From Tissierella sp. (GTDB taxonomy: Bacteria; Bacillota; Clostridia; Tissierellales; Tissierellaceae): DNA of 64,000 nucleotides. This document shows, in pieces, positions 14,814 through 54,838 of this stretch. The notes below the pieces were generated by a model. The model made no database searches, was not told the origin of the DNA, and saw nothing but the letters and a program-made list of their open reading frames with translations. The stretch covers positions 62,001 through 126,000 of the forward strand of contig NZ_JARIEF010000018.1 of assembly GCF_029266915.1 (NCBI RefSeq), written 5' to 3'. The stretch's first letter is position 1; each line of letters begins with the position of its first letter. A program made the translations under genes and the position numbers.

Positions 14814-14826
14814 AGCCGTGGAAAAT

Positions 14827-14855
14827 TTGCTAAAACAATTAAAACATGTTATAAT
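14827..14855 (+). promoter_or_regulatory. Sigma-A promoter for rnpB
   Basis: TTGCTA (14827-14832), 17-bp spacer, TATAAT (14850-14855). Confidence 0.75.
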
Positions 14856-14864
14856 TTAATTTCT

Positions 14865-15206
14865 ATTAGGAGTAAGTTGTTTGATCGGGTGCCTTGTAAG
14901 CATCAGGAAAGTCCGTGCTGCGCAGAGCAAGATGCTGGATAACGTCCAGTGAGGGTGACCTTAAGGATAGTGCAACAGAGAGATACCGCCTGTTTTTAAA
15001 TAGGTAAGGGTGGAAAGGCGAGGTAAGAGCTCACCAGCGCTTAGGTGACTAAGCGGCTATGTAAACCCCATTTGCAGCAAGACCAAAAAGGATAAGTACA
15101 AAGGGTAATTGCTCGTTACCTCTCCAAAGGTAGGTCGCATGAACCTATTGGCAACAATAGGTCTAGATAGATGATCAAATAAACAGAACACGGCTTATAG
15201 ATTTAC
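14865..15206 (+). ncRNA. rnpB: RNase P RNA
   Basis: Conserved AGGAAAGTCCGTGCT core, GATAGTGCAACAGAGAGATACCGCC, AAGGGTGGAAAGGCG, and terminal GAACACGGCTTATAGA. Ends approximate. Confidence 0.93.
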
Positions 15207-15216
15207 TCTTAAACAT

Positions 15217-15252
15217 GAAAGCTAAAGGGAGATACCCTTTAGCTTTCTTTTT
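15217..15252 (+). terminator. rnpB terminator
   Basis: gaaagctaaaggg/ccctttagctttc, 13-bp perfect stem followed by ttttt. Confidence 0.9.
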
Positions 15253-15347
15253 AATGAAATTTATAGCATTTATGGGAAGATAAATGATATACTTAGATTT
15301 GAAGCCAACAATCAATAGATTAATATCATATCAAAAGGGGTGCCATA

Positions 15348-18300
15348 ATGATCAAAAAAAGATTTAGAATAAGCCGAAAATTATTTGCAGGTTTTGCAAT
15401 TGTTACTTTACTCATGCTGTCAGTAATCTTATATTCATATTCTAGTTTTATACAGCAGGATAAGATTTTACAGCAAAATCTAAAAACATATAATATAATT
15501 AGTTATACAGATGATATTTTACAAAATATGTTGAATATGGAAACAGGTGTAAGGGGATACGCACTTACTGGCAATGAAAAATTTTTGGCACCTTATTACA
15601 TAGGAAAATTAGATTATGAAAAATCCTTCGATAAAGTTAAAAATTTAACAATGGAAGATGAAGTGCAGCAAGAACATTTAGTGGAACTAGATCTTAATAA
15701 GAAATTATGGCTTGATTATGTTAATTTAAATTTTATAGATGCTAGGGAAGACGTAAATTTAGGTAAGGTAGACCTCAATGATTATATATCTGTAGTCAAG
15801 CAAGGAAATGGGAAGAAATATATGGATATCATAAGAGATATTATATATGACATTAAAAATCAAGAGGAAAAAACACTTTATGACAGATCGATTTTATTTA
15901 ATAAATTAAAAACTAAGACATTTTTAATTATGTCTGTAGGAGGTTTAATAGCTACTATTTTATCTATAATAATAACCATGGTCATTGCCAGGCTCATAGT
16001 AAAACCTATCAATTCTGTTACAAAGACCTTTGATCAGCTTTCAATGGGAGATGCAGATTATAGGACTAGATTAGCATTTAAATCCAATGATGAATTAGGA
16101 CAACTAGCAAAAAACTTTAATAAATTTATGGATAAAATAGAAAAGATTATTATAGAAAACTTAAATGAAAGCTGGATTAAAACAGGACAAACTGATTTAA
16201 ATGAAAAGTTAAGAAACGCTAAGAATGTTGAAGAATTAACCGGAAATGCAATTGATTATATTGTGAAATATACAGATTCACAAATAGGAGCTATCTATAC
16301 TTGCACTGACAATAGCACCCTTAAATTGCTCAGCAGTTACGCCTATGAAAATAAAGCAAAAGAATCAGATGAGATTAAGTTTGGAGAGGGAGTAATAGGA
16401 CAAGCTGCTTTAGATAAGCAAACTATATTTTTAAAGAATATTCCCGATGACTATATCAATATAAGTACAGGAGTAGGACAAGCGCTGCCTAAGAATATCA
16501 TCGTCACACCTGGAATTTACAGCGAGGACATTAAATGTATAATAGAGATTGGTTCGTTTAATGAATTTACTCAACTGCATATTGAATTTATCGAAAGAGT
16601 AAGTGAAGGATTAGCTGTTGCTATTGGATCTGTAGAATCAAGAATAAAAATGCAGGAAATGTTGGAGACAACTTTAGAACAATCAGAAGAACTTAAGAAC
16701 CGACAAATAGAATTAAGTCATAGTAATGAGTATTTAGAAAAACAAACAATAGAACTAAAGCAATCGGAAGAAATACTCCAAGCTCAACAGGAGGAATTAA
16801 GACAAAGTAATGAAGAATTAGAAGAGCAGTCTAAATCATTAATGAATTCCGAATCCCAGCTCCAAACACAGCAAGAAGAGTTAAGAGTAACAAATGAAGA
16901 ACTGCAAGAGCGGACTAAAAGTTTAGAAATACAGAAAAATGATATAGCTGATAAAAATGAAACTCTAAGAAAAGCAAAATTAGAGATTGAAGAAAAGGTA
17001 AAAGCGATTGAGCTTGAAAGCAAGTATAAATCCGAATTTTTTGCAAATATGTCACATGAGCTAAGAACACCTTTAAATAGCATTTTAGTTTTATCTCAAA
17101 TTATTTCAGAAAGAGAGGTTAACTCGCTTATAACAACTAAGCATTTGGAATATGCAAATACTATTCATTCATCAGGAGAAAACTTATTGGGCTTAATTAA
17201 TGATGTATTAGATCTATCTAAGTTAGAAGCAGGTAAAATAGACATAGTATTAGAACCAGTAAACCTTTCGGATTTATTAGACTATACAGAGAGTTCGTTT
17301 ATGCATATAGCAGAAAAAAACAATGTATATTTAAAATTTGATATAGATGAAGAACTTCCAGAAACAATAATTTCAGATGAAGGAAAGATACATCAGATCT
17401 TAAATAATTTATTATCTAATGCTTTTAAATTTACTCATGAGGGAGGAGTAACTGTAAGCATACACAGACCTAAATCCGATGAGAAATCTATATGTATATC
17501 TATTAAGGATACAGGTATCGGAATCTTAGAGGAAACTCAGTCAGTTATATTTGATGCATTTAAACAATCTGATGGAACTATAAGCAGAAAATATGGAGGA
17601 ACCGGACTGGGATTATCTATTTCAAAGGGATTGGCAAATAACCTTGGAGGAGACATATTACTCCAAAGTGAAGAGGGAAAAGGAAGTACCTTCACCTTAG
17701 TTTTACCTCAAAATTCAGAGGGTGAAAAGTCTGACTTTGAAGAGATAATAGACACTTTAGAGATTGATAAATTAGAAAGCAGTGAAGTTAGATTAAAAGA
17801 TCACGCTCTTGTCAATACAAGTATAAATGATGATAGGCAAAATATTAAAGAATCAGATAAAGTAGTCTTAATAATTGAAGATGATCACAACTTTTCAAGA
17901 ATTTTAAACGATATAGCCCATGAAAAAGGATATAAATCAATAATTGCTCAAGATGCTAAATCGGGAATACAGTTAGCCAATAGATTCCTGCCGGACGCTA
18001 TTTTAATTGATATCGGGCTTCCAGATATGAATGGATGGAAGGTAGTTGAACATTTGGAAAAAAATAGTAATACAAAAAGTATTCCTATACATGTCATCTC
18101 AGGAAAAAATAATAAAGATGATGAATATATGGAAAAATATAAAAATAGTGTAGTGGAATATATAAATAAACCTGTGGGTCTGGATGAACTTAATAAAGTA
18201 TTCTCAGGAATTGAAGGTTTCACATCTAAGAAGTTAAAAAAATTACTGGTACTTGATGAAAGTGGGCAGGATAATAAAAACATACGAGACTTGCTGGGTT

Positions 18301-19034
18301 ATAAAGATATTCAAATTTCTTTTTTAGCTTCGGGAGAAGACGCATTAGAAGCTATAAAAGAAGAGGTCTATGACTGTATTGTACTTGATCTGAATTTAAA
18401 AGATATGACGGGTCTTCAATTCTTACAAAGCTTAAGTCAAAATCAAATATCAAATATTCCAATTATAGTTTATACTGAGGATATTCTAGAGCAGGAAGAT
18501 GAAATTAAATTAAAAGAATATGCAGAAAGTATAATAATAAAAGGCAGTAGGTCTTCAGAAAGACTTATTGCAGAGGTCAATCTTTTTCTTCACCATATAG
18601 ATAAGCTTAATAAGAGTGAAATTAAGTCAATCAAATCAGTTCATGAAAAGGAAAATTCATTAAAAGATAAAAAAATAATCATAGTAGATGACGATATGAG
18701 AAATGTTTTTGCACTATCGAATTTATTGGAAGATAAAGGTATGAAAGTGATAGTAGGAAGAAATGGAAAAGAAGGTATTGAAAAATTAAAGGAAAACACA
18801 GATGCTGACTTAATCTTAATGGATATAATGATGCCGGTAATGGATGGTTATACTGCAATGAGTGAGATCAGAAATGAACCGGGATTTTCTGAAATTCCTA
18901 TAATAGCTTTAACAGCTAAATCGATGAAAGATGATAGGGAAAAATCCATCGCTGCAGGAGCAAATGATTATTTAACAAAACCAATCGATACAGAAAAATT
19001 AATATCACTTTTAAGGGTGTGGCTATATAAATGA
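15348..19034 (+). CDS. Hybrid histidine kinase: TM-CHASE3-TM-HAMP-GAF-coiled coil-HisKA-HATPase-REC-REC-REC
   Basis: HisKA FFANMSHELRTPLNS; HATPase N/G boxes; three receiver modules (IEDD...LIDIGLPDMNG; VLDE...VLDLNLKDMTG; VDDD...LMDIMMPVMDG). Confidence 0.92.
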   Translation: MIKKRFRISRKLFAGFAIVTLLMLSVILYSYSSFIQQDKILQQNLKTYNIISYTDDILQNMLNMETGVRGYALTGNEKFLAPYYIGKLDYEKSFDKVKNLTMEDEVQQEHLVELDLNKKLWLDYVNLNFIDAREDVNLGKVDLNDYISVVKQGNGKKYMDIIRDIIYDIKNQEEKTLYDRSILFNKLKTKTFLIMSVGGLIATILSIIITMVIARLIVKPINSVTKTFDQLSMGDADYRTRLAFKSNDELGQLAKNFNKFMDKIEKIIIENLNESWIKTGQTDLNEKLRNAKNVEELTGNAIDYIVKYTDSQIGAIYTCTDNSTLKLLSSYAYENKAKESDEIKFGEGVIGQAALDKQTIFLKNIPDDYINISTGVGQALPKNIIVTPGIYSEDIKCIIEIGSFNEFTQLHIEFIERVSEGLAVAIGSVESRIKMQEMLETTLEQSEELKNRQIELSHSNEYLEKQTIELKQSEEILQAQQEELRQSNEELEEQSKSLMNSESQLQTQQEELRVTNEELQERTKSLEIQKNDIADKNETLRKAKLEIEEKVKAIELESKYKSEFFANMSHELRTPLNSILVLSQIISEREVNSLITTKHLEYANTIHSSGENLLGLINDVLDLSKLEAGKIDIVLEPVNLSDLLDYTESSFMHIAEKNNVYLKFDIDEELPETIISDEGKIHQILNNLLSNAFKFTHEGGVTVSIHRPKSDEKSICISIKDTGIGILEETQSVIFDAFKQSDGTISRKYGGTGLGLSISKGLANNLGGDILLQSEEGKGSTFTLVLPQNSEGEKSDFEEIIDTLEIDKLESSEVRLKDHALVNTSINDDRQNIKESDKVVLIIEDDHNFSRILNDIAHEKGYKSIIAQDAKSGIQLANRFLPDAILIDIGLPDMNGWKVVEHLEKNSNTKSIPIHVISGKNNKDDEYMEKYKNSVVEYINKPVGLDELNKVFSGIEGFTSKKLKKLLVLDESGQDNKNIRDLLGYKDIQISFLASGEDALEAIKEEVYDCIVLDLNLKDMTGLQFLQSLSQNQISNIPIIVYTEDILEQEDEIKLKEYAESIIIKGSRSSERLIAEVNLFLHHIDKLNKSEIKSIKSVHEKENSLKDKKIIIVDDDMRNVFALSNLLEDKGMKVIVGRNGKEGIEKLKENTDADLILMDIMMPVMDGYTAMSEIRNEPGFSEIPIIALTAKSMKDDREKSIAAGANDYLTKPIDTEKLISLLRVWLYK

Positions 19035-19882
19035 CTAGGAATGAAATAAAAGAAAATATACAAAATGAAGATATAGAAATCCATTTATTATTGGAAGTTA
19101 TGTTGTTGAAATATGGTTATGATTTCAAAAACTATTCAAAGGCTCATATAAAAAGACGTATTCTAAGAAGAGTAGAAATGTTAGGATTAAACAGCGTTAC
19201 AGAATTACAATACAAGATTCTTCATGATGAAAGTATATTTAAAATGCTCTTGGCAGATTTCTCTATAAATGTTACTGAAATGTTTAGGGATCCCAGTTTT
19301 TATAAGGCATTTAGAACTGAAGTAGTACCTGTTTTAAAAACATACCCCTTCATTAAAATATGGCATGCTGGCTGTTCAACCGGTGAAGAAGTTTACTCCA
19401 TGGCAATTCTCTTAAAAGAAGAGGGGCTTTATGATAGAACACAGATATATGCAACTGATTTTAATGAGCTGGTTTTGCAAAAAGCAAAAGCCGGAATCTA
19501 TAATATTGATGCTATCAAAACATATACGAAAAATTACCAATTATCCGGTGGCAGAGCATCATTTGGAGACTACTATACTGCTAAATATGATTCTGTTATA
19601 CTAGATGAATCTCTTAAACAAAAAATAATATTTGCAGATCATAACTTAGTAACTGATGGAGTTTTTGGTGAGATGCATGTTATAATCTGTAGAAATGTAA
19701 TTATCTATTTCAATAAAGATTTAAAAGATAAGACTTTGGACCTATTTTATAAGAGTTTAAATAATGGATGTTTTCTTTGTCTGGGATCAAAAGAAGGGAT
19801 TAAATTCTCAAGCAGTCAAGATAAGTTTATAAAGTATGTATCAAATGAAAATATTTTTCAAAGAAAATTCACCTTGGATTAA
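19031..19882 (+). CDS. CheR-type protein-glutamate methyltransferase
   Basis: HAGCSTGEEVYSMAILL and VIICRNVIIYFNKDLK; ATGA overlap with the kinase stop codon. Confidence 0.92.
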   Translation: MTRNEIKENIQNEDIEIHLLLEVMLLKYGYDFKNYSKAHIKRRILRRVEMLGLNSVTELQYKILHDESIFKMLLADFSINVTEMFRDPSFYKAFRTEVVPVLKTYPFIKIWHAGCSTGEEVYSMAILLKEEGLYDRTQIYATDFNELVLQKAKAGIYNIDAIKTYTKNYQLSGGRASFGDYYTAKYDSVILDESLKQKIIFADHNLVTDGVFGEMHVIICRNVIIYFNKDLKDKTLDLFYKSLNNGCFLCLGSKEGIKFSSSQDKFIKYVSNENIFQRKFTLD

Positions 19883-19916
19883 ATTAAAGGTTTTAATAGG
19901 AAGGAGAAAATTCTAT

Positions 19917-20501
19917 ATGACTTATAAGGCAGTGGTAGTAGGTGCATCTGCAGGAGGAATGCAAGCATTAAGGGATTTATTGATCAAGCTGCCTAAGAAT
20001 TTTGCAGCTCCAATAATGATAGTACAGCATTTAAGCCCTGAATCTGACGGCTATATGGCAAAGTATTTGAATGAACAATCCTCAATGGAGGTAAAGGAGG
20101 CAGATGATAAGGAAGAGATCCTCTTTGGAAGAGTTTATATTGCCCCTCCTAATTATCATTTGTTAGTTGAAAAAGATCAAACACTATCATTTACAGTAGG
20201 AAACAAGGTAAATTATGCAAGACCCTCTATAGATGTATTATTTGAAACTGCAGCAGACTTATATCAGGAAACTTTGATAGGGATTATTTTAACAGGAGCA
20301 AATAGTGATGGAAGCAAAGGATTGAAGGTTATTAAAGATAAGGGAGGCATAACAATAGTTCAAGATCCTGATACTGCTTTAATTGATTCTATGCCTAAGG
20401 CTGCAATAAATGCTACATCAGTGGACTATGTATTATCAGTTGATCAAATAAGCGATAAATTAATTGAATTGGTGGGATTAAAAAATGAAACAGCAGTATA
20501 A
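19917..20501 (+). CDS. CheB-type methylesterase catalytic domain (no receiver domain)
   Basis: VVGASAGGMQALRDLL (Ser), IVQHLSPESDGYM (His), ILTGANSDGSKGL (Asp); ATG 19917 after aaggag. Confidence 0.92.
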   Translation: MTYKAVVVGASAGGMQALRDLLIKLPKNFAAPIMIVQHLSPESDGYMAKYLNEQSSMEVKEADDKEEILFGRVYIAPPNYHLLVEKDQTLSFTVGNKVNYARPSIDVLFETAADLYQETLIGIILTGANSDGSKGLKVIKDKGGITIVQDPDTALIDSMPKAAINATSVDYVLSVDQISDKLIELVGLKNETAV

Positions 20502-21480
20502 TAATCATGTGCTTATAGTAGATGATAAGCCAGAAAATCTTATGGTTTTAGAAGTGTTATTAGAAGATATGAATTGCAATGTAGTTAAAGCACACTCGGG
20601 AAATGAGGCATTAGGACTATTATTTGAATATGAATTTGCATTAGTTCTCTTAGATGTTCAGATGCCGGAGATGGATGGATTTGAAACAGCAGAATTAATG
20701 AGGGGCAGTGAGAGAACAAGATATATTCCAATCATATTTGTAACAGCAATCAGCAAAGAGAAAATATCTATATTTAAAGGTTATGAAGTAGGAGCAGTAG
20801 ATTATCTTTTTAAACCTATTGAACCTATGATTTTAAAAAGTAAAGTAAAAGTATTTATTGAACTTAACAATCAAAAAAGATTATTGGAGCAGCAGTCTGA
20901 ACTCCTTGAACTGAAGGTAAAAGAATTGGTAGAATTAAAAAATGATAACTTCAGATTACATAATCTTTCATTCAGTGATGGACTTACAGGAATAGCAAAC
21001 AGAAGAAGTTTTGATGAATATATGGATAAAGCATGGAAAAATTCTATAAGATCAAATACACCTATCTCACTCATTATGATAGATATTGATTTCTTCAAAA
21101 TGTACAACGATAATTACGGTCATCTTCAGGGAGATGATTGCCTTATAAAAGTAGCCCATGCACTTTCTTTAAGTATAAGAAGACCCATGGATTTTGTAGC
21201 AAGATACGGCGGAGAGGAGTTTATATTTATATTACCCGATACGGACTCTTTTGGAGCTCTAAAGCTCGCTGAAGATATAAAGAGAAATATAAAAGATATG
21301 GAAATTCCTCATGAATACTCACCTGTATCACCACACGTGACAATTAGTCAGGGAATAGCAACATCTTATCCTGACAGAGGAGATCAGTTAGAAGATTTTA
21401 TTAACTTAGCAGATAAGGCCATGTATAACTCAAAAGAGTCTGGAAGAAATATGATAACTTCGCTTGATGATGGGGAGTAA
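20485..21480 (+). CDS. Response regulator diguanylate cyclase (REC-GGDEF)
   Basis: REC VDDKPENL...LLDVQMPEMDG; GGEEF active site with RPMD I-site five residues upstream. Confidence 0.94.
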   Translation: MKQQYNNHVLIVDDKPENLMVLEVLLEDMNCNVVKAHSGNEALGLLFEYEFALVLLDVQMPEMDGFETAELMRGSERTRYIPIIFVTAISKEKISIFKGYEVGAVDYLFKPIEPMILKSKVKVFIELNNQKRLLEQQSELLELKVKELVELKNDNFRLHNLSFSDGLTGIANRRSFDEYMDKAWKNSIRSNTPISLIMIDIDFFKMYNDNYGHLQGDDCLIKVAHALSLSIRRPMDFVARYGGEEFIFILPDTDSFGALKLAEDIKRNIKDMEIPHEYSPVSPHVTISQGIATSYPDRGDQLEDFINLADKAMYNSKESGRNMITSLDDGE

Positions 21481-21576
21481 ATATATGTATAATAATCATC
21501 CTTAATGTTTAGAATGCCAATATTTATGGTATGATAATAGAGAGAGTATTTATAAATTAAATTGGAGGAGATTTTT

Positions 21577-22425
21577 TTGGCTGAAATTTTAAGAGGTAAA
21601 GATGTAGCGGACAAGATAAAAGAAAAGATGGTAAAGCGAATTGAAAAATTAAATGAAAAGGGATTAGAACCAACTCTTGCAATAGTAAGACTGGGAGAGG
21701 ATCCAAGTGATCTATCTTATGAAAGAGGTATAATAAATAATTCTGAAAAATTAGGTATAAAAACTGTTATAAAAGAAGAAGCGCGTGATTTAAAAACTGA
21801 AGATCTTGTAAAAATTATTGAAGAACTTAACAATGATGATAAAATATCCGGGATTTTAATTTTCAGACCGCTTCCTAAACAAATAGATGAAGAACTTATA
21901 AGCAAAACTATTAGTCCAGATAAGGATGTAGACTGTATGAATCCTTTAAACTTGGCTAAGATATTTGAAGGTGATATGAGCGGGTTTGCACCAGGAACAC
22001 CAAAAGCTGCTATAGAGATTTTATTAAATAACAATATAGAATTGGAAGGAAAAAATATTGTAGTAATAAACAGATCACTAGTAGTTGGTAAACCTCTTGC
22101 TATGATGCTTTTAGAGGAAAATGCTACAGTAACTATCTGCCATTCAAGAACTAAAGACTTAGATAAGATAACTAGAAATGCAGATATAGTAATGACAGCT
22201 CTTGGAAGAGCAAAAATGCTAGATGAAAAATACTTTAATGAAGATTCTATAATAATTGATATTGGAGTAAGTATGGATGATGAAGGTAAAATGAGCGGAG
22301 ACGTAGATTTTGAAAATGTAGAAGGAAAAGTAGCAAAAATAACACCAGTTCCTAGAGGTGTTGGAAGTGTTACAAATACAATTTTATTAGACAATATTGT
22401 AAAAGCATGTGAAAAAAGAGCTTAG
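21577..22425 (+). CDS. folD: Bifunctional methylene-THF dehydrogenase/cyclohydrolase
   Basis: PLPKQ, NRSLVVGKPLAMMLL, VPRGVGSVTNTILL; TTG 21577 fits SD ggaggag. Confidence 0.93.
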   Translation: MAEILRGKDVADKIKEKMVKRIEKLNEKGLEPTLAIVRLGEDPSDLSYERGIINNSEKLGIKTVIKEEARDLKTEDLVKIIEELNNDDKISGILIFRPLPKQIDEELISKTISPDKDVDCMNPLNLAKIFEGDMSGFAPGTPKAAIEILLNNNIELEGKNIVVINRSLVVGKPLAMMLLEENATVTICHSRTKDLDKITRNADIVMTALGRAKMLDEKYFNEDSIIIDIGVSMDDEGKMSGDVDFENVEGKVAKITPVPRGVGSVTNTILLDNIVKACEKRA

Positions 22426-22441
22426 TATATTTTTATAAATA

Positions 22442-22490
22442 AAAAAGGAAGCTGGGTTAAGAGATTCTCTTAATCTAGTTTCCTTTTTAT
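22442..22490. terminator. Terminator between the convergent genes folD and PBP1A
   Basis: aaaaggaagctgggttaagagattctcttaatctagtttcctttttatt hairpin with T tract. Confidence 0.75.
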
Positions 22491-22528
22491 TGTCTGTAAG
22501 TTACTTCTAAACCATAAAAGTTTATTGA

Positions 22529-25500
22529 TTATGGTTTAGGTTTATTTTCTCCTTCACCAGGCTTAGGATCTTCCGGTTTAGGTTCTTCTGGTTTAGTGTT
22601 GTCAGGCTTAGGATCTTTTGGCTTATTATCGTCTGGCTTAGTATTATCTGGTTTTGTTTCATCAGGCTTAGGATCTTTTGGTTTATTGATGTCGGGTTTA
22701 GGTTCTTCTGGTTTTTCTTCATCAGGTTTAGTATCCGGTTTAGGATCTGGCTGAGAAGGCTGTACTGTATTTGGTCCATGATCTTTACATGTCCAGTGTG
22801 GTGCATTATAAGCATAATCTCTAGGTATTATACCATTATTTTCACTTGGAATGTAAGGAGGGGTTCTTTGAACATATACCCTGCTTGTTACAAGATAGGA
22901 TGGACAATACTGATTTGCTATCCTATTGTTGCTAGTATCTACTCTAACTAAAGTATGAACATCACAATAATCTGTAGGAACTGTTCCCTTAGCAAATATT
23001 TCAGTTTTTACAACATGTCTGGGATCGCTGCTACATAGAGATGTAGGCAGTTTGCCAGATTGAGTACATACTTGTGCCGACACTATACCATCGGGCTTTT
23101 CAAATGACTTTATCGGCTCCAATCCATCATGGACTTTTGTCATAATATGCTGCCAAAATGATGCAGCAGTCAAACTATTTCTGTTTAATCTAATGCTTGG
23201 AGAGTCGTTTCCTATCCATACTCCAGTTACATAGTATGGTGTATAACCTACAAACCATATATCAGCTTTTTCTTGAGTTGTTCCTGTTTTACCTCCTGAG
23301 ACCATATTTTGAAGTCTTGATCTCTTAGCCCCGCTTGTACCGTCAGTTACGTTGCTTCTTAGAACATCTCCCATTATATAGGCAATTTGAGGAGAAACTA
23401 CTGTAGTTTTCCTAGGTTCATTTTCAAGTAAAACATTTCCGTCTTTGTCTAATATCTTTGTAAATGCGATGGGTTCAATATAGACACCATCATTTGCTAT
23501 AGCTCCGTAAGCTGCTGTTACTTCTAGAGGGGTCAAACCATTTCTCATTCCTCCAAGAGCAAGAGGAGCTAGATTTTTATCATGCTCTTTACTAAAGTTA
23601 TCTTTTTCTCCATTTGGCTTGTTTACTATACCAAGTTTTTCTAAATAAGAAACTGATGTATCTATTCCAATATCTTCTACAGTTCTAAGTGCAGTCATGT
23701 TTCCGGATTCTTCAACAGATTGTCTTAAAGTTCTTATTCCCTTATAGCCACTATAACTATTTATTGCTGGTTCATCTTTGCCATCATAGAAATATGGAAT
23801 ATCATCTATAGCTGAAGCGGCGGTATATCCATTGTCAAGAGCTGGCAGATAAGCTGCAAGAGTCTTCATAGTAGAACCTGGCTGTCTTGGAGAGTTAGTA
23901 GCTCTGTTTAATATTCTTTGTCCTTCGACGTCTCGGCCACCTACAATAGCTTTTATATTACCAGTTCTATAATCTAAAATTACAGTCGCAGATTGAGGCT
24001 GCACTATTCCTTCAGACTCACTGTAAAAGTATTTGTCACTTATAAGCAGAGTTCCCTTATCGTTTATTGTATAAAAATCTTTCTTTGAGTCTAGGAAAGA
24101 TTTTGTAATTACTATTTGTCCGTTTTCATTAACACTAAATGATTCTTCCTTCATATCAAAAGATCCAACAGTATAAGTTACTAGGTTGTTTCTTTCATCT
24201 ATTGTATAATAATCAATTATATCAACATGTTTTGGATAAGGTGTTAATTTAGTAGTTTTATTTATAACTATATCGCCATTTTCAGATAAAGAATATTCTC
24301 CTTTAGTTATTATTAGATTATCTTCTTCATCTAATAAGCTGCTTTTTTTGTAGAAAAGTACTTTTCCTTTATCATCTATTATATTGCCGTCTTTTAACTT
24401 CCAATCTATTAAAGCTGGACCGTTAAAGCCGGAACTATTTCCTTCTAAAACTTCAGTGAAGTTATCATATATTGCTTCAAGTTCTTTTTGAAGTTTTAAG
24501 TCTACAGTAGAGTAAATCTTCAGTCCACCCTTATAAAGGGCTTCTTCAGCGTCATCTCTGGTATAGTCAAGTTTAGTCATTAAAGCTGTTACGACTTGAG
24601 TTTTTACATAGTCAGTAAAATAAGATGTTATATCTTCTAACTTCTTTTGACCAGGAGTTAGAGTTTCTCTTATATCTTCTTTTAATGCTTCATCATACTG
24701 AGTTTGTGTTATATTGTTTAGTTCTAACATTTTCTTTAAAACTAGTTTTTGTCTTTTTATAGATTCTTCATTAAATACCAGGATATACTTTTCACCTTGA
24801 ACATTCATCTCGCCTACTGCAGCTTGCTTTTCAGCATCATACTCTTGAGGCTTAACTCTGGTAAAGGGTTGATATTTTGTAGGACTCTTTACAATACCTG
24901 CAAATAGAGCAGATTCTGCAAGGGTAAGATCTTCAACATTTTTAGAAAAATATGTTTGTGAAGCTTCCTGTACTCCCCATGAATTTTGACCAAAAAATAT
25001 TCTATTTAAGTAAGCTTCTAATATTTGATCTTTATGGAGTATTTTTTCTACCTTCAAGGATAGATATGCTTCATTAATCTTTCTGCTTAAAGTCTGTTCA
25101 TTAGTTAAGTAGACGTTCTTTACTAACTGCTGGGTAATGGTACTTGCACCTCTTACAACGTCGCCGTATCTTATGTTTTCAATAAGTGAGCCGACTATTC
25201 CTTTAGGGTCGACTCCTTTGTGCTCTGCAAATCTTTCATCCTCAATCGCTATGAAAGCATTTTGAAGATCTTTAGGAATCTTATTCAAGCTTACAAATGT
25301 CCTATATTCTCCAGTGTCTATTTTTTCTAACAATTTTTCATTTGCATAAATTGTAGACGTCTGACTTAATGAAGAATTTATTTTGGTGGGATCAATTTCT
25401 GGTGCATCTTGAAGAATAGAGATGACTGCTCCACCGAGAACACCTCCTCCGACTACTAATAATAATAGTATAAGTACTAAGAATATCTTAAAAGATTTAA

Positions 25501-47016: not shown

Positions 47017-47037
47017 AAATAATTTGGAGGTGTGTTT

Positions 47038-48087
47038 ATGACAAAGAAGAATGTACGAGTAATAGTTTGGGGACTTGGATCTATGGGCAAGGGAATTGTA
47101 GAAATGCTTCTTGATAAAAAAGGAGTAGAAATCTCAGGAGTGGTAGTCAGAGGAGATAAAATAGGAAAGAGTATGTATGAAATATTAGAAATAGATAGGG
47201 GAAACCGAGATGATATAATTGCCGGAAGTTTTGAAGATATAATAATAGAAGGATCGGCAGATGTGGTAATACTTTGTACTGACTCCTTTGTAAAAGATAG
47301 TTTTGATAAGATGAAATATATCTTAAACAACAAGATAAATGTAATCTCAACCGCTGAAGAAATGGCCTATCCTAAGGTATCTAATAAAAAGTTGTCTGAG
47401 GAGTTAGACACTCTTGCTAAGGAAAATAAAGTGAGTATATTGGGAACTGGAATAAATCCTGGATTTATCATGGATCTTTTAGTTATAGCACTTACAGGTA
47501 CAGCTATTGATGTAGAAAGTATAAAGGCCGAGAGAATAAATGATCTTTCTCCTTTTGGACCAGCAGTTATGAAAGAACAGGGAGTTGGAATAAGCTTAGA
47601 AGAATTTAATAAAAGACTGGATGAGGAAAGCTTAGCAGGACATGTTGGATTTCCTGAGTCTATAAATATGATAGCAGATGCTATAGGTATTGATATAGAT
47701 TCAGAAATAAAACTCACAAGATCACCAATAGTTTCCAAAGTAGATAGAAGTACAAACTTTGTAAAGGTAGCCAAAGGAGAAGTTGCAGGATGTAATATGA
47801 AAGGTTATGGCTATAGCGAGGGTAAACTTAAGATAGAAATGCTCCATCCCCAGCAAATTAAGCCAGAACTTGAAGGGATAAAAACTGGTGATTATATTGA
47901 AATAAAAGGCACGCCAGATATAAACTTGAGTATAATACCTGAAATACCTGGTGGCATAGGCACTATAGCTATGGCAGTCAATATGATTCCGCACATAATT
48001 AATGCCCGTCCCGGTTTAAAAACCATGATAGACCTACCCGTTCCTCGTGCAATAATGGGAGATATGCGAGAGTTGATAGAAAAATAA
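47038..48087 (+). CDS. ord: 2,4-diaminopentanoate dehydrogenase
   Basis: Dihydrodipicolinate-reductase-like fold (VIVWGLGSMGKGIVEML); first gene of the ornithine operon. Confidence 0.93.
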   Translation: MTKKNVRVIVWGLGSMGKGIVEMLLDKKGVEISGVVVRGDKIGKSMYEILEIDRGNRDDIIAGSFEDIIIEGSADVVILCTDSFVKDSFDKMKYILNNKINVISTAEEMAYPKVSNKKLSEELDTLAKENKVSILGTGINPGFIMDLLVIALTGTAIDVESIKAERINDLSPFGPAVMKEQGVGISLEEFNKRLDEESLAGHVGFPESINMIADAIGIDIDSEIKLTRSPIVSKVDRSTNFVKVAKGEVAGCNMKGYGYSEGKLKIEMLHPQQIKPELEGIKTGDYIEIKGTPDINLSIIPEIPGGIGTIAMAVNMIPHIINARPGLKTMIDLPVPRAIMGDMRELIEK

Positions 48088-48098
48088 GGAGGTAAACT

Positions 48099-48410
48099 AT
48101 GCAAGCTAAATCTGGTGATTGGGTTAGGATTTATAGTATCGTGTTAGACAAAAGAGAAAGAGCAGAAAATATTCCTCTTGATACTAAAGAGTTTCCTTTA
48201 GAGATGTGGTCCAAGGGATTTTTAGAAGACAATGAAGCAAATATTGGAGACTTTGTAGAAATTGAAACTTATATAGGAAGAAAGACAAAAGGAATATTAG
48301 TAGAAATAAATCCTTATTTTAAACATACTTATGGAAAAACGGTTCCTCAGATTCTTTATATTGGTAGACAGGCTCGAAACTTGTTGGATGGAGGTGAAAT
48401 AGATGGATAA
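48099..48410 (+). CDS. ortA: 2-amino-4-ketopentanoate thiolase alpha subunit
   Basis: Small protein (AKSGDWVRIYSIVLDKRERAENIPLDTK) between ord and ortB. Confidence 0.92.
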   Translation: MQAKSGDWVRIYSIVLDKRERAENIPLDTKEFPLEMWSKGFLEDNEANIGDFVEIETYIGRKTKGILVEINPYFKHTYGKTVPQILYIGRQARNLLDGGEIDG

Positions 48411-49821
48411 TCTTTATCAGGAAGTTATGAAGAGGAGAAACTCTATAATACAAAACTCCATAGATATAGACTACAAAACTTATGAAAAAGATATAATATC
48501 TTTTGATTATGAAAAGATGATGGCAGACGTAGGATATAGCATTGAAGACGTAGAGATGATTCAGGCTGAAACAAGTGTCGGAAGTACACCTTTATATGAA
48601 CTTAAAAACCTGACAAAACTAGCCAGACTTTATGCCTCAGAGGGTAAAGGAGCTAGAATATTTTTAAAAGATGAGGCTGTAAATCCATCTGGAAGTTTTA
48701 AGGCTAGGCGTGCATCGATCAATTGCTACCATGCAAAGAAGATGGGATACAAAGGCGTTATAGCTGCTACATCAGGCAATTATGGAGCAGCAGTGGCATC
48801 TCAGGCTGCTATACAGGGACTTAAGTGCATAATAGTTCAGGAGTGTTATGACTCAAATGGACTGGGTCAGCCGGAGATAATAGAAAAAGCAAGAAAATGT
48901 GAAGCGTATGGAGCAGAGGTAATTCAGCTTACAGTAGGACCGGAATTGTTTTTTAAATTTCTTTCTCTTTTAGAAGAGACGGGATATTTTAATGCGTCTC
49001 TCTATACACCATATAGTATTTTAGGAGTTGAAACTTTAGGCATGGAAATATCCAGGCAGATGATAGAAAAAACTGGAAAAAACCCAGACTGCGTGGTAGT
49101 TACAAATGCAGGAGGAGGCAATTTAACTGGTACTGCTAGGGGACTTATTAAAAGTGGATCCAAGGAGACTGAGATTATAGCTGCAAGTGTAGATTTAGAA
49201 GGCCTGCATATGGCTTCAGATACAGATTTTAATAAAAAATCATTTACTACAGGACACACTGGTTTTGGAATACCTTTTGCAACTTTTCCAGATAGGTCTG
49301 ATGTGCCTAGATCTGCAGCTAGACCTCTTAGATATACAGACAAATATGTAGTAGTTAGCCAGGGAACTGTATTTTATATGACAGAACTCTTAGCCCAGAT
49401 TGAAGGACTTGAAAGAGGGCCGGCAGGTAATGTTTCTTTGGCTGGGGCATTTAAACTGGCCCAGGAAATGCAAAGTGATCAAACTATAGTAGTTCAAGAA
49501 ACAGAATATACGGGAGCTGGAAAACACATAAATGCTCAGCTATCTTTTGCCACTGAAAATGGCATTGAGCTTTTAATAGGAGATCCAAGGGATGAAATAC
49601 CAGGACAAAATATAATCCTTCCTAAGGATCCAAGTTTTGTAGACTTATCAGAGTTAGATCTGGATAAGATTAAAAATTCGCTTATAAGAAATAGTGTAAA
49701 AGATTTAAATGAAAAAGTTTTGAAGCTCGAAGATTTAAACTTCCTAGTAGAAGAGACAAAATCAGACTTAGAATTTGTTAAAGCTGCTTTAGATAATCTG
49801 AAAATAAATTATAAGGAGTGA
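48403..49821 (+). CDS. ortB: 2-amino-4-ketopentanoate thiolase beta subunit (PLP-dependent)
   Basis: Threonine-synthase-like fold (NPSGSFKARRASINCYHAKKMGYKGVIAATSGNYGAAVASQAA). Confidence 0.93.
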   Translation: MDNLYQEVMKRRNSIIQNSIDIDYKTYEKDIISFDYEKMMADVGYSIEDVEMIQAETSVGSTPLYELKNLTKLARLYASEGKGARIFLKDEAVNPSGSFKARRASINCYHAKKMGYKGVIAATSGNYGAAVASQAAIQGLKCIIVQECYDSNGLGQPEIIEKARKCEAYGAEVIQLTVGPELFFKFLSLLEETGYFNASLYTPYSILGVETLGMEISRQMIEKTGKNPDCVVVTNAGGGNLTGTARGLIKSGSKETEIIAASVDLEGLHMASDTDFNKKSFTTGHTGFGIPFATFPDRSDVPRSAARPLRYTDKYVVVSQGTVFYMTELLAQIEGLERGPAGNVSLAGAFKLAQEMQSDQTIVVQETEYTGAGKHINAQLSFATENGIELLIGDPRDEIPGQNIILPKDPSFVDLSELDLDKIKNSLIRNSVKDLNEKVLKLEDLNFLVEETKSDLEFVKAALDNLKINYKE

Positions 49822-49827
49822 TAGTAG

Positions 49828-50178
49828 ATGGAAAGAGAAGATGACTTTCAAAGCCGAAGAAAACATCTAAATGATCTTAGTGAAAAAGAGCTAGAAGCTA
49901 GATTTTGGAGTTTATCAGAAAAACTTGTAGACCCTTTAATAACTTTAGCCCACTCTCATTCATCACCATCAATAGAAAGGTCAGTTCTTCTTAGAATGGG
50001 TTTTTCTAGTATTGAAGCAAAAAAGATAGTAGATATAGCAATAGAGCGTAATATAGTGGCAAAGGGAGCTGGTAATTTAGTATATAGATTGGCTCAAGCT
50101 GAAAATATAAGTATAAGAGATGCAGGACTTCATCTCTATCGAGAAGAGATGTGGGAAAATGTAATATCTTTATTTTAA
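49828..50178 (+). CDS. oraS: D-ornithine 4,5-aminomutase S subunit
   Basis: Small helical protein directly upstream of oraE (LVDPLITLAHSHSSPSIERSVLLRMGFSSIEAK). Confidence 0.93.
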   Translation: MEREDDFQSRRKHLNDLSEKELEARFWSLSEKLVDPLITLAHSHSSPSIERSVLLRMGFSSIEAKKIVDIAIERNIVAKGAGNLVYRLAQAENISIRDAGLHLYREEMWENVISLF

Positions 50179-50189
50179 GGAGGTAGACA

Positions 50190-52418
50190 ATGGAACTAAA
50201 ACCGAATGAGAAATTAGATATAAGTAATATATTAATGAATATAGAGCACTATAGACCAAGAAGAAGAGGATGGCACTGGAGGGAAGAACTCGACGGCGGT
50301 GAAAGGTTAGGGGAGTTTTTCTACCAGGACATTTCAAAGTCTTTAGAAAATTCTCAGCCCCTACCAGCTGCTAAATATTTTCAAAACATAGATCCCCAGC
50401 CTCGGGAAGTTATAACCACTGAAATAGCATCTGGACGCTTTGAAGATGATATAAGACGAATGAGAATGGCTGCGTGGCATGGAGCCGATCACATAATGGT
50501 AATCAGGACTGCAGGGCAGTCTCATTTTGACAGCCTCTTAGAAGGGACACCTCAAGGTATAGGAGGTATACCTATAACTCGAAAACAAATCAGATGTCAA
50601 AGAAAAGCACTTGATCTTATAGAAGATGAAGTAGGAAGAGAGATAAACTATCATTCCTATATCTCGGGTGTAGCAGGGCCTGAAATAGCAGTTATGTTTG
50701 CAGAAGAAGGAGTAAACGGAGCACATCAAGATCCCCAGTACAATATCCTCTATAGAAACATAAATATGATAAGATCCTTTGTAGACGCAGCTGAAGCCAA
50801 AAAAATTATGGCTTTTGCTGATATCTGCCAAATAGATGGAGCCCATAATGCAAATGCAACTGCTAGCAAGGCCTGGAAGGTTACTCCGGAACTTATGGTT
50901 CAGCATGCTATAAATTCTATGTTTTCGGTAAAGGTGGGTATGAAAAAGTCTAATATTTGTTTATCTACAGTTCCGCCAACTGCGCCTCCAGCTCCTTGCC
51001 TAAAATTAGATCTTCCCTATGCCATTTGCCTGAGGGAAGTATTTAAAGATTATAAGATGAGAGCTCAGATGAATACAAAATATATGGAATCTTCAACCAG
51101 AGAAGCCACTGTCACACATGTATTAAATCTCCTAATATCCAAGCTAACACGAGCTGACATTCAATCTACCATAACTCCGGATGAAGGTAGAAACGTGCCT
51201 TGGCATATTTATAATATAGAAGCAGTTGACACTGCAAAACAGGCTCTAATAGGTATGGATGGTTTAAATGATATGATTGAAATAAAAAGAGACAGTAAGG
51301 AACTAGCTAAAACTATTAGAGAATTAAAGGAAAGAGCTATACTTTTTATGGAAGAGATGCTAGAAGAAGGTGGGTATTTCCAGGCAGTTGAAAAAGGATT
51401 CTTTGTAGATTCTGGATTTTATCCAGAGAGAAACAGCGATGGAATTATCAGAAAAATAGATGGTGGTGTTGGAAGCGATAGCATCTTTGAACGCGATAAA
51501 GACTATTGCGCACCTGTAGGTGCACATTTTGGCTATAACAACCTAGCACAGTATGGAGAAGAAATTCAAGACAATCCATCTTTACTGATAGGCGGAGATA
51601 CTTTTAAAGATCCATCTAAGATAGTATTTATTGATGAATTAGATGAAACTGATAATGTAAATATAAGATTAGATGAACATCTTGATCTTAGAAACTCTCT
51701 TCTAGTAAAGCCGGAAATGGAATGGTTGGGAGACGGAACAGTTTTACTGACGATTTTCCTGCCAACTGATGCTAGAAGAGCAGAATTTGCAGCAATTGAA
51801 ATTGGAAAAAAGATGAATCTTAAGGATGTAGAAGTTATCCATAGAGAAATTATGCAGGAAGCAGAGGGAACTCGTATTGAATTAAAGGGAAGAGTAGATT
51901 TTTCAATAGACCTTGAAAAACTAACTATACCTCCTATTCCCAAGGTAATGAGTGAAGAAGAATTAAAAGCATCAATAAAAGAGAGACCTTTAAAAATTGT
52001 TGCCGGAACAATAGGTGAAGATGAGCATTCTGTTGGACTTAGGGAGATTATAGATATAAAACATGGCGGTATTGAAAAATATGGTATAGAATGCCATGTA
52101 CTTGGAACATCAGTTGATATAGAAAAACTGATTGATGCTGCTATTGAGTTAGATGCAGATGCGGTTCTCTCTTCTATGATAATTTCTCACGATGATATTC
52201 ATTATAAAAATATGAAAAAAATTGAAGAGCTATCAATAGAAAAAGGTGTAAGAGATGATCTAATCTTAATAGCAGGAGGAACTCAGGTAACTGATGAGAT
52301 AGCAAGGAGAAATGGTATGGATAAAGGATTTGGAAGAGGAACACAGGGAGTCCATGTTGCCACTTTTTTAGTTGAAAAAAGAGACAGTAAAAGAAAGGAA
52401 AAGCGCGATGAGAGTTGA
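50190..52418 (+). CDS. oraE: D-ornithine 4,5-aminomutase E subunit (AdoCbl- and PLP-dependent)
   Basis: Large aminomutase; cobalamin motif DxHxxG seen as DEHSVG; LGTSVDIEKL and AGGTQ in the Rossmann domain. Confidence 0.95.
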   Translation: MELKPNEKLDISNILMNIEHYRPRRRGWHWREELDGGERLGEFFYQDISKSLENSQPLPAAKYFQNIDPQPREVITTEIASGRFEDDIRRMRMAAWHGADHIMVIRTAGQSHFDSLLEGTPQGIGGIPITRKQIRCQRKALDLIEDEVGREINYHSYISGVAGPEIAVMFAEEGVNGAHQDPQYNILYRNINMIRSFVDAAEAKKIMAFADICQIDGAHNANATASKAWKVTPELMVQHAINSMFSVKVGMKKSNICLSTVPPTAPPAPCLKLDLPYAICLREVFKDYKMRAQMNTKYMESSTREATVTHVLNLLISKLTRADIQSTITPDEGRNVPWHIYNIEAVDTAKQALIGMDGLNDMIEIKRDSKELAKTIRELKERAILFMEEMLEEGGYFQAVEKGFFVDSGFYPERNSDGIIRKIDGGVGSDSIFERDKDYCAPVGAHFGYNNLAQYGEEIQDNPSLLIGGDTFKDPSKIVFIDELDETDNVNIRLDEHLDLRNSLLVKPEMEWLGDGTVLLTIFLPTDARRAEFAAIEIGKKMNLKDVEVIHREIMQEAEGTRIELKGRVDFSIDLEKLTIPPIPKVMSEEELKASIKERPLKIVAGTIGEDEHSVGLREIIDIKHGGIEKYGIECHVLGTSVDIEKLIDAAIELDADAVLSSMIISHDDIHYKNMKKIEELSIEKGVRDDLILIAGGTQVTDEIARRNGMDKGFGRGTQGVHVATFLVEKRDSKRKEKRDES

Positions 52419-53766
52419 TCTTTTAATAGCTGAAATAGGCAGCACTACAACTGTTATCAATGCTTTTAATATAGGAGTTGATAATACAGGATTTGTAGGT
52501 GAAGGTCACAGTCAGACAAGTGTTATGGAAGGTGATGTAAACATAGGTCTAGAAGCTGCAATTAAGGATTTGTGCAGAAATCTAGACATAAGCTCTATAG
52601 AGTACGATGAGTTTATGGCAAGCTCTTCAGCCGCTGGAGGATTAAAGATGACAGTTCATGGGCTTGTTCACGATATGACAGTAAGGGCTGCAAAGGAATC
52701 AGCCCTTGGAGCTGGTGCTAATATAAAGTTTATAACATCGGGGAAACTAAGAAGATCTGATCTTAAAAAGATACAGGATATTGAGCCTAATATAATCCTG
52801 CTTGCAGGAGGGGTAGATCATGGAGAGCGTGATACTGCTATCTATAACAGCCAGCTTATAGCTGAATTAAAATTAGATATTCCCATAATATATGCTGGAA
52901 ACGCTGAAAATGATGAAGAAATTCGAAGTATATTTGAGTCTGAAAATATAGAAATCTATATAGTAGAAAATGTTTATCCTCGAATTGATACTTTAAATAT
53001 CAAACCTACAAGGCTCGCAATCCAGGAAGTTTTTGAAAAGCATATAATCCATGCAAAAGGCATGGATAAGATCAGAGAAATGGTTGATGGTCCTATAATG
53101 CCTACTCCCGGAGCTGTTATGGAAGCTACTATACTTTTATATGAGAGTATAGGAAATATTTTAACTATAGATGTTGGAGGAGCTACTACAGATATACACT
53201 CTATTTCACAGGAAACAGAAGAAGTTGGAAAAATACTCATAAGACCAGAGCCTCATGAGAAAAGAACTGTTGAAGGAGACCTAGGAGTATATATTAATTC
53301 TAGAAATTTATTTAAAATATTAGAAGAAGAAAACCTTCTTGATAGATTTGAAATCACTCAAGAAGAACTTACTGGCTATATGGATAAGATCAAAGCAATA
53401 CCAAAATCTCAGGAGGAGATAAATTCAACAAGAATTCTAACAAGTATATCCAGCCAAGCAGCATTATACAGGCATGCAGGCATGATAAAAGAGATATATG
53501 GGCCAACAGGCAAAAAAACCATAGCTGAGGGAAAAGACCTTTCGGCTGTAAAAACTTTAATAGCAACTGGAGGAGCTCTTACAAAACTTCCTGCCATGAA
53601 AGAAGAACTTGAGAGAATAATAAGAGAGAAAAAGCCTCTATATCTTCTTCCAAGTGAAGTAGAGATCCTCATAGATAAAGATTATATTATGGCATCTATA
53701 GGAGTTATGTCTACGAGATATCCTCAGGCTGCTTTAAAAATCATGGAGAATAGTTTGAAAAAATAG
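52408..53766 (+). CDS. GlmL/MutL-like ASKHA-family protein, putative aminomutase reactivase
   Basis: LIAEIGSTTTVINAF, LAGGVDHGERDTA, TIDVGGATTDIHS; overlaps the oraE 3' end. Confidence 0.88.
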   Translation: MRVDLLIAEIGSTTTVINAFNIGVDNTGFVGEGHSQTSVMEGDVNIGLEAAIKDLCRNLDISSIEYDEFMASSSAAGGLKMTVHGLVHDMTVRAAKESALGAGANIKFITSGKLRRSDLKKIQDIEPNIILLAGGVDHGERDTAIYNSQLIAELKLDIPIIYAGNAENDEEIRSIFESENIEIYIVENVYPRIDTLNIKPTRLAIQEVFEKHIIHAKGMDKIREMVDGPIMPTPGAVMEATILLYESIGNILTIDVGGATTDIHSISQETEEVGKILIRPEPHEKRTVEGDLGVYINSRNLFKILEEENLLDRFEITQEELTGYMDKIKAIPKSQEEINSTRILTSISSQAALYRHAGMIKEIYGPTGKKTIAEGKDLSAVKTLIATGGALTKLPAMKEELERIIREKKPLYLLPSEVEILIDKDYIMASIGVMSTRYPQAALKIMENSLKK

Positions 53767-53776
53767 GAGGAAAAAA

Positions 53777-54838
53777 ATGCAGTATCCAAGACTGATTATC
53801 AATACTGATGTAATAAGAAACAATACAAAGCTAATAGTAGATAAATGCAGTCAAAATGGAATAGCAGTAGTAGGAGTTACCAAGGGAGTTTGTGCACAGA
53901 AAGAGATAGTAGAGAGCTTTATAAAGGGTGGTGTTAAGTTTCTAGGGGATTCAAGAATAGAAAACTTAATAAGCTTAGCCAAGTATGATATCCCTAAAAT
54001 GATGCTTAGACTTCCTATGATATCTGAAGCAGATAAAATAGTAAAGTATACAGATTTATCGCTAAACTCAGAGATAGATACTATAAGAGCACTAGATAAA
54101 GCTGCTCTAAGAGCTGGAAAGATACATGGAATTATACTCATGATAGACCTTGGAGATCTCCGGGAAGGATATTATTATGAAAAAAACTTACTTAGAACGG
54201 TTGAACTTGTATGCCAGATGGAAAATGTCAAAGTTACTGGCCTAGGTACAAACCTTACATGTTTTGGAGCCGTTATTCCAGAGGACTCTTCCATGATTAC
54301 CCTAGAGAGATTGTCTCGTGAGATAAATGACAAACTTAATCTCGATATAGAGATAATTTCTGGTGGAAACTCCAGCACTTTGCATCTTCTGGAAAAAGGA
54401 AAAATAAAGGGAATCAATAATTTAAGACTAGGAGAATCGCTACTTCTGGGAAAAGAAACAGCCTATAATACCCAAATAAATGGAACCAGTTCTGCTGGAT
54501 TTATCCTAGAAGCAGAAATAATAGAGAGAAAATCTAAACCATCAATGCCTGTTGGAAAAATAGGACTTGATGCTTTTGGAGATGTTCCTGTGTTTATAGA
54601 TAAGGGCTTAAGAACCAAATTGATATGCGCTATAGGAAAACAAGATGTAAAGGTAGAATCTCTTATAGCTATGGACAAGGACTTGAAAATACTTGGAGCA
54701 AGCTCAGACCATCTGATAATAGATTCGACAGATTCAAGCTTGGAATATAAGGTTGGAGATATAGTATCATTTCATTTAGGTTATAGTGGAATCTTGAGTT
54801 CTATGACTTCAAAGTATATTAAAAAGATTATTATATGA
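53777..54838 (+). CDS. orr: Ornithine racemase (alanine racemase-like fold)
   Basis: PRLIINTDVIRNNTKLIVDKCSQNGIAVVGVTKGVCA; end of the ornithine operon. Confidence 0.9.
   Translation: MQYPRLIINTDVIRNNTKLIVDKCSQNGIAVVGVTKGVCAQKEIVESFIKGGVKFLGDSRIENLISLAKYDIPKMMLRLPMISEADKIVKYTDLSLNSEIDTIRALDKAALRAGKIHGIILMIDLGDLREGYYYEKNLLRTVELVCQMENVKVTGLGTNLTCFGAVIPEDSSMITLERLSREINDKLNLDIEIISGGNSSTLHLLEKGKIKGINNLRLGESLLLGKETAYNTQINGTSSAGFILEAEIIERKSKPSMPVGKIGLDAFGDVPVFIDKGLRTKLICAIGKQDVKVESLIAMDKDLKILGASSDHLIIDSTDSSLEYKVGDIVSFHLGYSGILSSMTSKYIKKIII

Follow-up and report, generated by a model that had tools for sequence, protein, structure and literature searches.

A Cfc-type operon of hybrid kinase, CheR, CheB and diguanylate cyclase genes in a Tissierella genome, with a kinase coiled coil as candidate methylation target

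CheR and CheB are taught as chemoreceptor enzymes, and their occurrence beside a hybrid histidine kinase and a diguanylate cyclase, in a stretch of DNA that encodes no chemoreceptor, raises the question of what they act upon. The locus is a four-gene island in the window, the term used here for the whole 64,000-nucleotide stretch that was analysed (Tissierella sp., assembly GCF_029266915.1, contig NZ_JARIEF010000018.1, positions 62,001 to 126,000; positions below are counted from its first letter), in which four tandem open reading frames (ORFs) on the + strand were read as a hybrid kinase, CheR, CheB and a protein with a receiver (REC) and a GGDEF domain (Table 1). The island represents, in Clostridia, a signalling module of the Pseudomonas CfcA type that is widespread but has been little studied, and the probable explanation of it as a whole is a Cfc-type signalling operon in which the kinase would signal to the cyclase while CheR and CheB would tune the coiled coil of the kinase. 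The coordinates, the strand and the gene junctions in a preliminary description, made from the letters of the window alone, were all reproduced from the ORFs. The ATGA at 19031-19034 serves as kinase stop and CheR start (4-bp overlap), a 34-bp spacer (19883-19916) separates CheR from CheB, and the ORFs of CheB and the cyclase overlap by 17 bp (20485-20501). CheB was read from the ATG at 19917; an alternative start at 19836 would give a protein of 221 amino acids overlapping CheR. The same description had reported no gene for a methyl-accepting chemotaxis protein (MCP), CheW or flagella in the window, and no MCP, CheW or FliM/N match was obtained there.

The Pfam domains of the kinase are CHASE3 (residues 46-180), HAMP (212-265), GAF (GAF_2; 292-426), HisKA, HATPase_c and three Response_reg domains, and its catalytic residues, namely His570 of HisKA and Asp888, Asp1014 and Asp1159 of the receivers, are intact by sequence. 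The cyclase comprises only a receiver and a GGDEF domain, without the PAS or EAL domains of the CfcR architecture, and retains Asp57 of the receiver, the GGEEF motif (242-246) and the inhibitory site R233xxD236. CheB had been described as a methylesterase domain only, and Pfam likewise detects no N-terminal receiver domain in it; a CheB without receiver also characterises chemosensory class F3 (PMC9239204).

In Pseudomonas putida KT2440, the hybrid kinase CfcA, encoded in cfcABCDE, activates the diguanylate cyclase CfcR, and the formation of cyclic di-GMP (c-di-GMP) requires His496 of CfcA and Asp65 of CfcR (PMC4951495). Because of this precedent, the domains and the intact residues, a step from kinase to cyclase is considered very probable in the island as well. 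The membrane-bound CHASE3/HAMP/GAF kinase would sense a signal and autophosphorylate at His570, and the phosphate would reach Asp57 of the REC-GGDEF protein directly or via the receivers of the kinase and thereby prompt that protein to make c-di-GMP. The reading of the four genes as one signalling operon that puts out c-di-GMP, proposed in the preliminary description, is supported. Glutamates in the coil that lies between GAF and HisKA would be methylated by CheR and demethylated by a constitutively active CheB, and this methylation would set the gain of the kinase, as in chemoreceptors. Methylation of the kinase is the likeliest reading of the CheR/CheB pair, and an action of the two enzymes on the island kinase is favoured with moderate confidence.

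A second Tissierellaceae genome (G013) carries all four genes in the same order between other flanks (identity 53/68/64/70%). When 85,000 species genomes were scanned with the CheB pair, 68 loci were obtained, and the list breaks sharply after the nearest 14. The latter have short CheBs of 45-66% identity, each adjoining a CheR of 54-72% identity, and a large hybrid kinase lies upstream in nearly all of them where the contig permits (Bacillota, Bacteroidota, Spirochaetales and Desulfamplus); a Thiotrichales genome among them has the CheR-CheB pair without an adjoining kinase. The other 54 loci hold mainly receiver-bearing chemotaxis CheBs. A search starting from the kinase employed an alignment (A2) of the coil and H-box of eleven kinases on 399 Bacillota, 297 Bacteroidota, 297 Actinomycetota and 295 genomes of the Thalassolituus order (taken as Pseudomonadales, GTDB); 100 gene neighbourhoods were inspected, and a full-coil kinase was defined by a score of at least 185 bits. 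CheR was found within a few genes of 44 of the 51 full-coil kinases, in all four groups (Bacillota 9/9, Bacteroidota 4/6, Pseudomonadales 28/33, Actinomycetota 3/3), counts to be read in view of the A2 model having been built from CheR-linked kinases. CheB was near 29 of the 51 and a GGDEF protein near only 12. The core of the module is thus the kinase with CheR, and CheB is a frequent companion. The output, here c-di-GMP, can be exchanged: GGDEF, GGDEF-EAL and REC-kinase proteins and single receivers were seen beside such kinases. The island is more than a chance arrangement, since the second Tissierellaceae genome has the same gene order and the linkage of kinase and CheR recurs in several phyla; of the four-gene linkage expected earlier, the kinase-CheR part is borne out in several phyla and the full set of four is not generally linked, the output gene being variable.

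Variants of the arrangement were also observed. Six Paenibacillus-like operons (L131-L136) hold the kinase and CheR without CheB and have instead a second kinase/receiver protein of ~557 amino acids, and Actinomycetota kinases of the same type (L160-L162) have a same-strand CheB nearby and no CheR close by. One ORF of 1790 amino acids (L217:2681-8053), beside a second CheR gene, joins CheB, CheR, HAMP-like repeats, GAF, coil, kinase and three receivers in a single chain.

In a tree of 113 CheRs, the 77 kinase-linked sequences group apart from those of chemotaxis and of fusion proteins (4 label changes, shuffled mean 30.5); in one of the exceptions, L059, the kinase is cut by the contig end. 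The kinase-linked CheRs share ~55-70% identity across phyla, as against 24-35% with chemotaxis CheRs. Their separate branch indicates that the kinase-linked CheR has specialised on the kinase setting. The functional tie of CheR and CheB to the kinase that had been suggested earlier gains support from this branch and from the linkage kept in several phyla.

The coil is built of 28-residue blocks in which Leu recurs every seven residues and heptad positions b/c carry pairs of Glu; these positions also carry the methylation sites of MCPs. It is conserved on par with the catalytic boxes, and the GAF domain has almost no invariant columns. Block 1, an extra coil block whose tracking of CheR linkage is the new element here, was found in 61 of 67 CheR-linked and 5 of 31 unlinked kinases (Fisher p 2.6e-13), and its second Glu is conserved in 95% of the CheR-linked kinases. 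It is tentatively put forward as the best candidate for the CheR/CheB site, with the chances somewhat below even. Block 2 is probably a general signalling coil because it is conserved with or without CheR. The number of blocks differs between close relatives, with three in the window kinase (residues 452-521, ~16701-16910; the first degenerate) and two in its G013 homologue. An AlphaFold2 monomer model of GAF, coil and kinase, from an alignment of 11 sequences (predicted local distance difference test score 76.5, predicted template modelling score 0.42), has long helices with a low-confidence break at model residues 204-216, corresponding to block 1, in which a monomer model does not distinguish a hinge from an artefact. 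The break falls exactly on kinase residues 480-492 (16785-16823).

Two other possible signs of CheR association were discarded. The number of coil motifs (at least 2 motifs in 59/67 against 9/31) was not significant as a CheR marker after correction for kinship, and a CheR-tethering pentapeptide at the C terminus of the kinase was rejected as the tail LLRVWLYK is common to linked and unlinked kinases and carries no CheR signal. A search of plasmids with the coil at the DNA level gave no match.

Counted in favour of the kinase as the CheR/CheB substrate are the gene linkage, the separate CheR branch, the L217 fusion and a coil that is invariant, unlike the GAF domain; the explanation as a whole draws further on the tracking of block 1, the lack of any other CheR/CheB and of CheW and FliM/N in the assembly, and the P. 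putida Cfc precedent. Several observations weigh on the other side. After correction for kinship on the kinase-core tree, which offers only about nine supported independent contrasts, the association of block 1 with CheR is a trend (~5.1 pairs for and 1.0 against, median p 0.2); the block 1 trait was refined after the data had been seen, and the model behind it came from linked kinases; and five unlinked kinases retain the block. GGDEF proteins are scarce near full-coil kinases, as counted above. A literature search found no measured methylation of a kinase of the Cfc type, and P. putida mutants in the other cfc genes kept the crinkle phenotype according to an unpublished statement of the authors (PMC4951495). 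Finally, the coil had been likened to an MCP helix, and this resemblance did not hold: the kinase has no match to the MCPsignal domain of Pfam, and its coil gives none to the enteric CheR methylation consensus, not even to a relaxed version, although an MCP encoded in the same genome (L040) has two strict matches to that consensus.

The last point bears on a different possibility, that CheR and CheB serve MCPs encoded elsewhere in the genome and merely travel with the kinase. The genome is a metagenome-assembled genome (MAG) of a member of Tissierellaceae (2.15 Mb, 122 contigs, 89% complete, 6.8% contamination) in which the only CheR and the only CheB are those of the island operon. Five MCP-domain proteins, including the one with the consensus sites, lie on other contigs (L039-L043; contigs C122, C95, C67, C93 and C51), and a che cluster could be absent through the 89% completeness: a sister species (G022) has its single CheB within a complete che/fli-type cluster (L037), so the lack of chemotaxis genes in the genome of the window may be a loss or an assembly gap. 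On the other hand, no CheW-domain protein, hence no canonical CheA, was found in the 89% complete assembly, nor any FliM/N. The island CheR belongs to the kinase-linked branch, apart from the chemotaxis CheRs, and G013 has, besides its island, a CheB of 314 amino acids, a size typical of the REC-CheB form, together with a CheB-CheR fusion protein. In P. putida KT2440, where cfcB/cfcC constitute one of three CheR/CheB pairs (PMC4951495), a chemotaxis role of CfcB/CfcC was ruled out (Garcia-Fontana 2013, as cited in PMC4951495). Service to distant MCPs is therefore unlikely. The five MCPs beside no CheW and no FliM/N are either orphan receptors or the mark of a gap in the MAG.

A partner other than the kinase might instead be modified by CheR and CheB, for example a coil within the cyclase itself or some unlinked protein. 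Partners do seem exchangeable, as the output protein varies between operons, and non-MCP substrates of CheR are little explored; yet the kinase is the most constant neighbour of the island-type CheR, and a CheB-CheR-coil-kinase fusion exists; another partner is judged unlikely. The two enzymes might also be passengers, dispensable or structural, of a simple pathway from kinase to cyclase, as the persisting crinkle phenotype of the P. putida mutants and the lack of CheB in the Paenibacillus-like operons would allow; the intact catalytic residues of CheB and the retention of CheR, diversifying together with the kinase in several phyla, argue otherwise, and passengers are judged improbable. An origin of the island in misassembly or contamination, for which the 6.8% contamination of the MAG and the absence of a second CheB from the sister species might speak, is scarcely believable given its place within a 64-kb stretch of housekeeping genes in an order common to the family, a base composition like that of the flanks and an intact second copy in another Tissierellaceae genome.

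The island is an accessory element inserted at a variable site, since from the Zn-ribbon protein/RNase P region to folD (window 14814-21573) Tissierellaceae relatives have other genes or almost none. A foreign origin could not be argued from base composition, which is uninformative (31.1% G+C in the island, 30.4-32.3% in the flanks), and no promoter is claimed, since promoter-like matches around the operon were no commoner than in shuffled sequence. Downstream (window 22425-22529), a penicillin-binding protein follows directly after folD in the window, where relatives (L046-L052) have folD and then spoIIAA-, spoIIAB- and sigF-like and spoVA-type genes, which suggests that the sporulation genes were lost there. 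Further along, judging from sequence alone, window 47032-54838 holds genes resembling an ornithine degradation set, with aminomutase subunits and proteins like thiolase and racemase. In another family member (G020), the chemotaxis cheB lies in two ORFs (L036:9642-10692), with an in-frame stop or frameshift (TAG inside).

Table 1. Features of the island and its upstream border in the window
Feature	Position	Strand	Basis
Hybrid histidine kinase, CfcA-type, 1228 aa	15348..19034	+	Pfam domains; 33% identity over 1184 aa to the kinase of locus L190
Q/E-rich coiled coil between GAF and HisKA, kinase residues 435-565	16650..17042	+	Repeat pattern; AlphaFold2 helices
Coil block 1, residues 480-493, QQEELRQSNEELEE	16785..16826	+	Tracks CheR linkage; candidate CheR/CheB site
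Coil block 2, residues 508-521, QQEELRVTNEELQE	16869..16910	+	Equally conserved with or without CheR (A2 columns)
CheR methyltransferase, 283 aa, kinase-linked CheR branch	19031..19882	+	Pfam CheR_N and CheR; CheR tree
CheB methylesterase, 194 aa, without receiver	19917..20501	+	Pfam CheB_methylest alone; triad Ser11-His38-Asp131 intact by sequence
WspR-like REC-GGDEF diguanylate cyclase, 331 aa	20485..21480	+	Pfam Response_reg and GGDEF; active-site residues
RNase P RNA terminator (intrinsic), marking the border of the operon on its upstream side	15217..15247	+	
RNase P RNA, upstream of the operon	14869-15213		

Among known systems, the closest is Cfc of P. putida, whose kinase CfcA is described as a CHASE3/GAF kinase (PMC6849547) and, in PMC12421958, is cited as a salt sensor with reference to Tagua 2022. 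The published cfcA primers match kinases of the Pseudomonadales set in the expected order and spacing (in L204, four of the five primers with 4, 1, 2 and 3 mismatches), and the five-gene locus L190 is taken as a Pseudomonas cfc-like locus on account of its gene order and primer matches. Loci of this set that the primers recognise have the kinase, CheR and CheB genes in the order of the island. In both the island and Cfc, a CHASE3/GAF hybrid kinase with a phosphoacceptor His comes first and the CheR and CheB genes come next, the kinases are homologous over nearly their full length (Table 1), and the target is, or in the island would be, a diguanylate cyclase with a phosphorylatable receiver. 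They differ in that the island has its REC-GGDEF target within the operon, whereas CfcR is a REC-PAS-GGDEF-EAL protein that is an orphan in KT2440 and lies next to cfcA in P. resinovorans; five loci of the Pseudomonadales set resemble the latter pairing, with kinase, CheR and CheB joined by a GGDEF protein of ~710 amino acids. The island also lacks CfcD/CfcE and resides in a Bacillota host. By the full-length homology to the L190 kinase and the cfc gene order, the island is assigned to the Cfc type with a simple REC-GGDEF output, and its cyclase, having only REC and GGDEF domains, is not a CfcR orthologue. An unprecedented system is ruled out by P. putida cfcABCDE (PMC4951495). The preliminary description, which had called the system poorly described, was right that the kind is under-studied and missed that CfcA/CfcR with CfcB/CfcC is of the same kind; the module itself is already known and the island adds a new example.

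In the one studied case, CfcA, the kinase-to-cyclase step is established and CheR/CheB are left unexplained. That a branch of CheR lives beside hybrid kinases in several phyla suggests a role for methylation-based adaptation in ordinary two-component signalling too, and the coil block provides a specific peptide on which methylation outside MCPs becomes testable. The broader proposition, a chemoreceptor-style adaptation in ordinary two-component systems of several phyla, in which methylation of a coil block would tune a swappable output without MCP, CheW or CheA, is given an even chance.

Other systems share parts of the design. Wsp (WspA-F, WspR), a chemosensory pathway of alternative function, also combines CheR/CheB-type adaptation enzymes with a REC-GGDEF output for c-di-GMP, but has an MCP, CheW, CheA and a receiver-bearing CheB (WspF), whereas a single hybrid kinase replaces MCP, CheW and CheA in the island; with no CheA/CheW in the assembly and no MCP in the operon, the island falls outside the chemosensory (Che/Wsp/ACF) pathways. 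CdgK/CdgS of Anabaena PCC 7120 likewise pairs a multisensor hybrid kinase with a REC-GGDEF protein in one operon, and phosphorylation raises the cyclase activity; CheR/CheB are not mentioned for it, and the kinase has CHASE, five PAS and Hpt domains (PMC9927289). CheB-CheR-PAS fusions combine CheB and CheR with an EEL-rich coil that resembles that of the kinase (35% in L035 over the length of the kinase coil), and differ from the island in being single polypeptides without a CHASE3/HAMP sensor.

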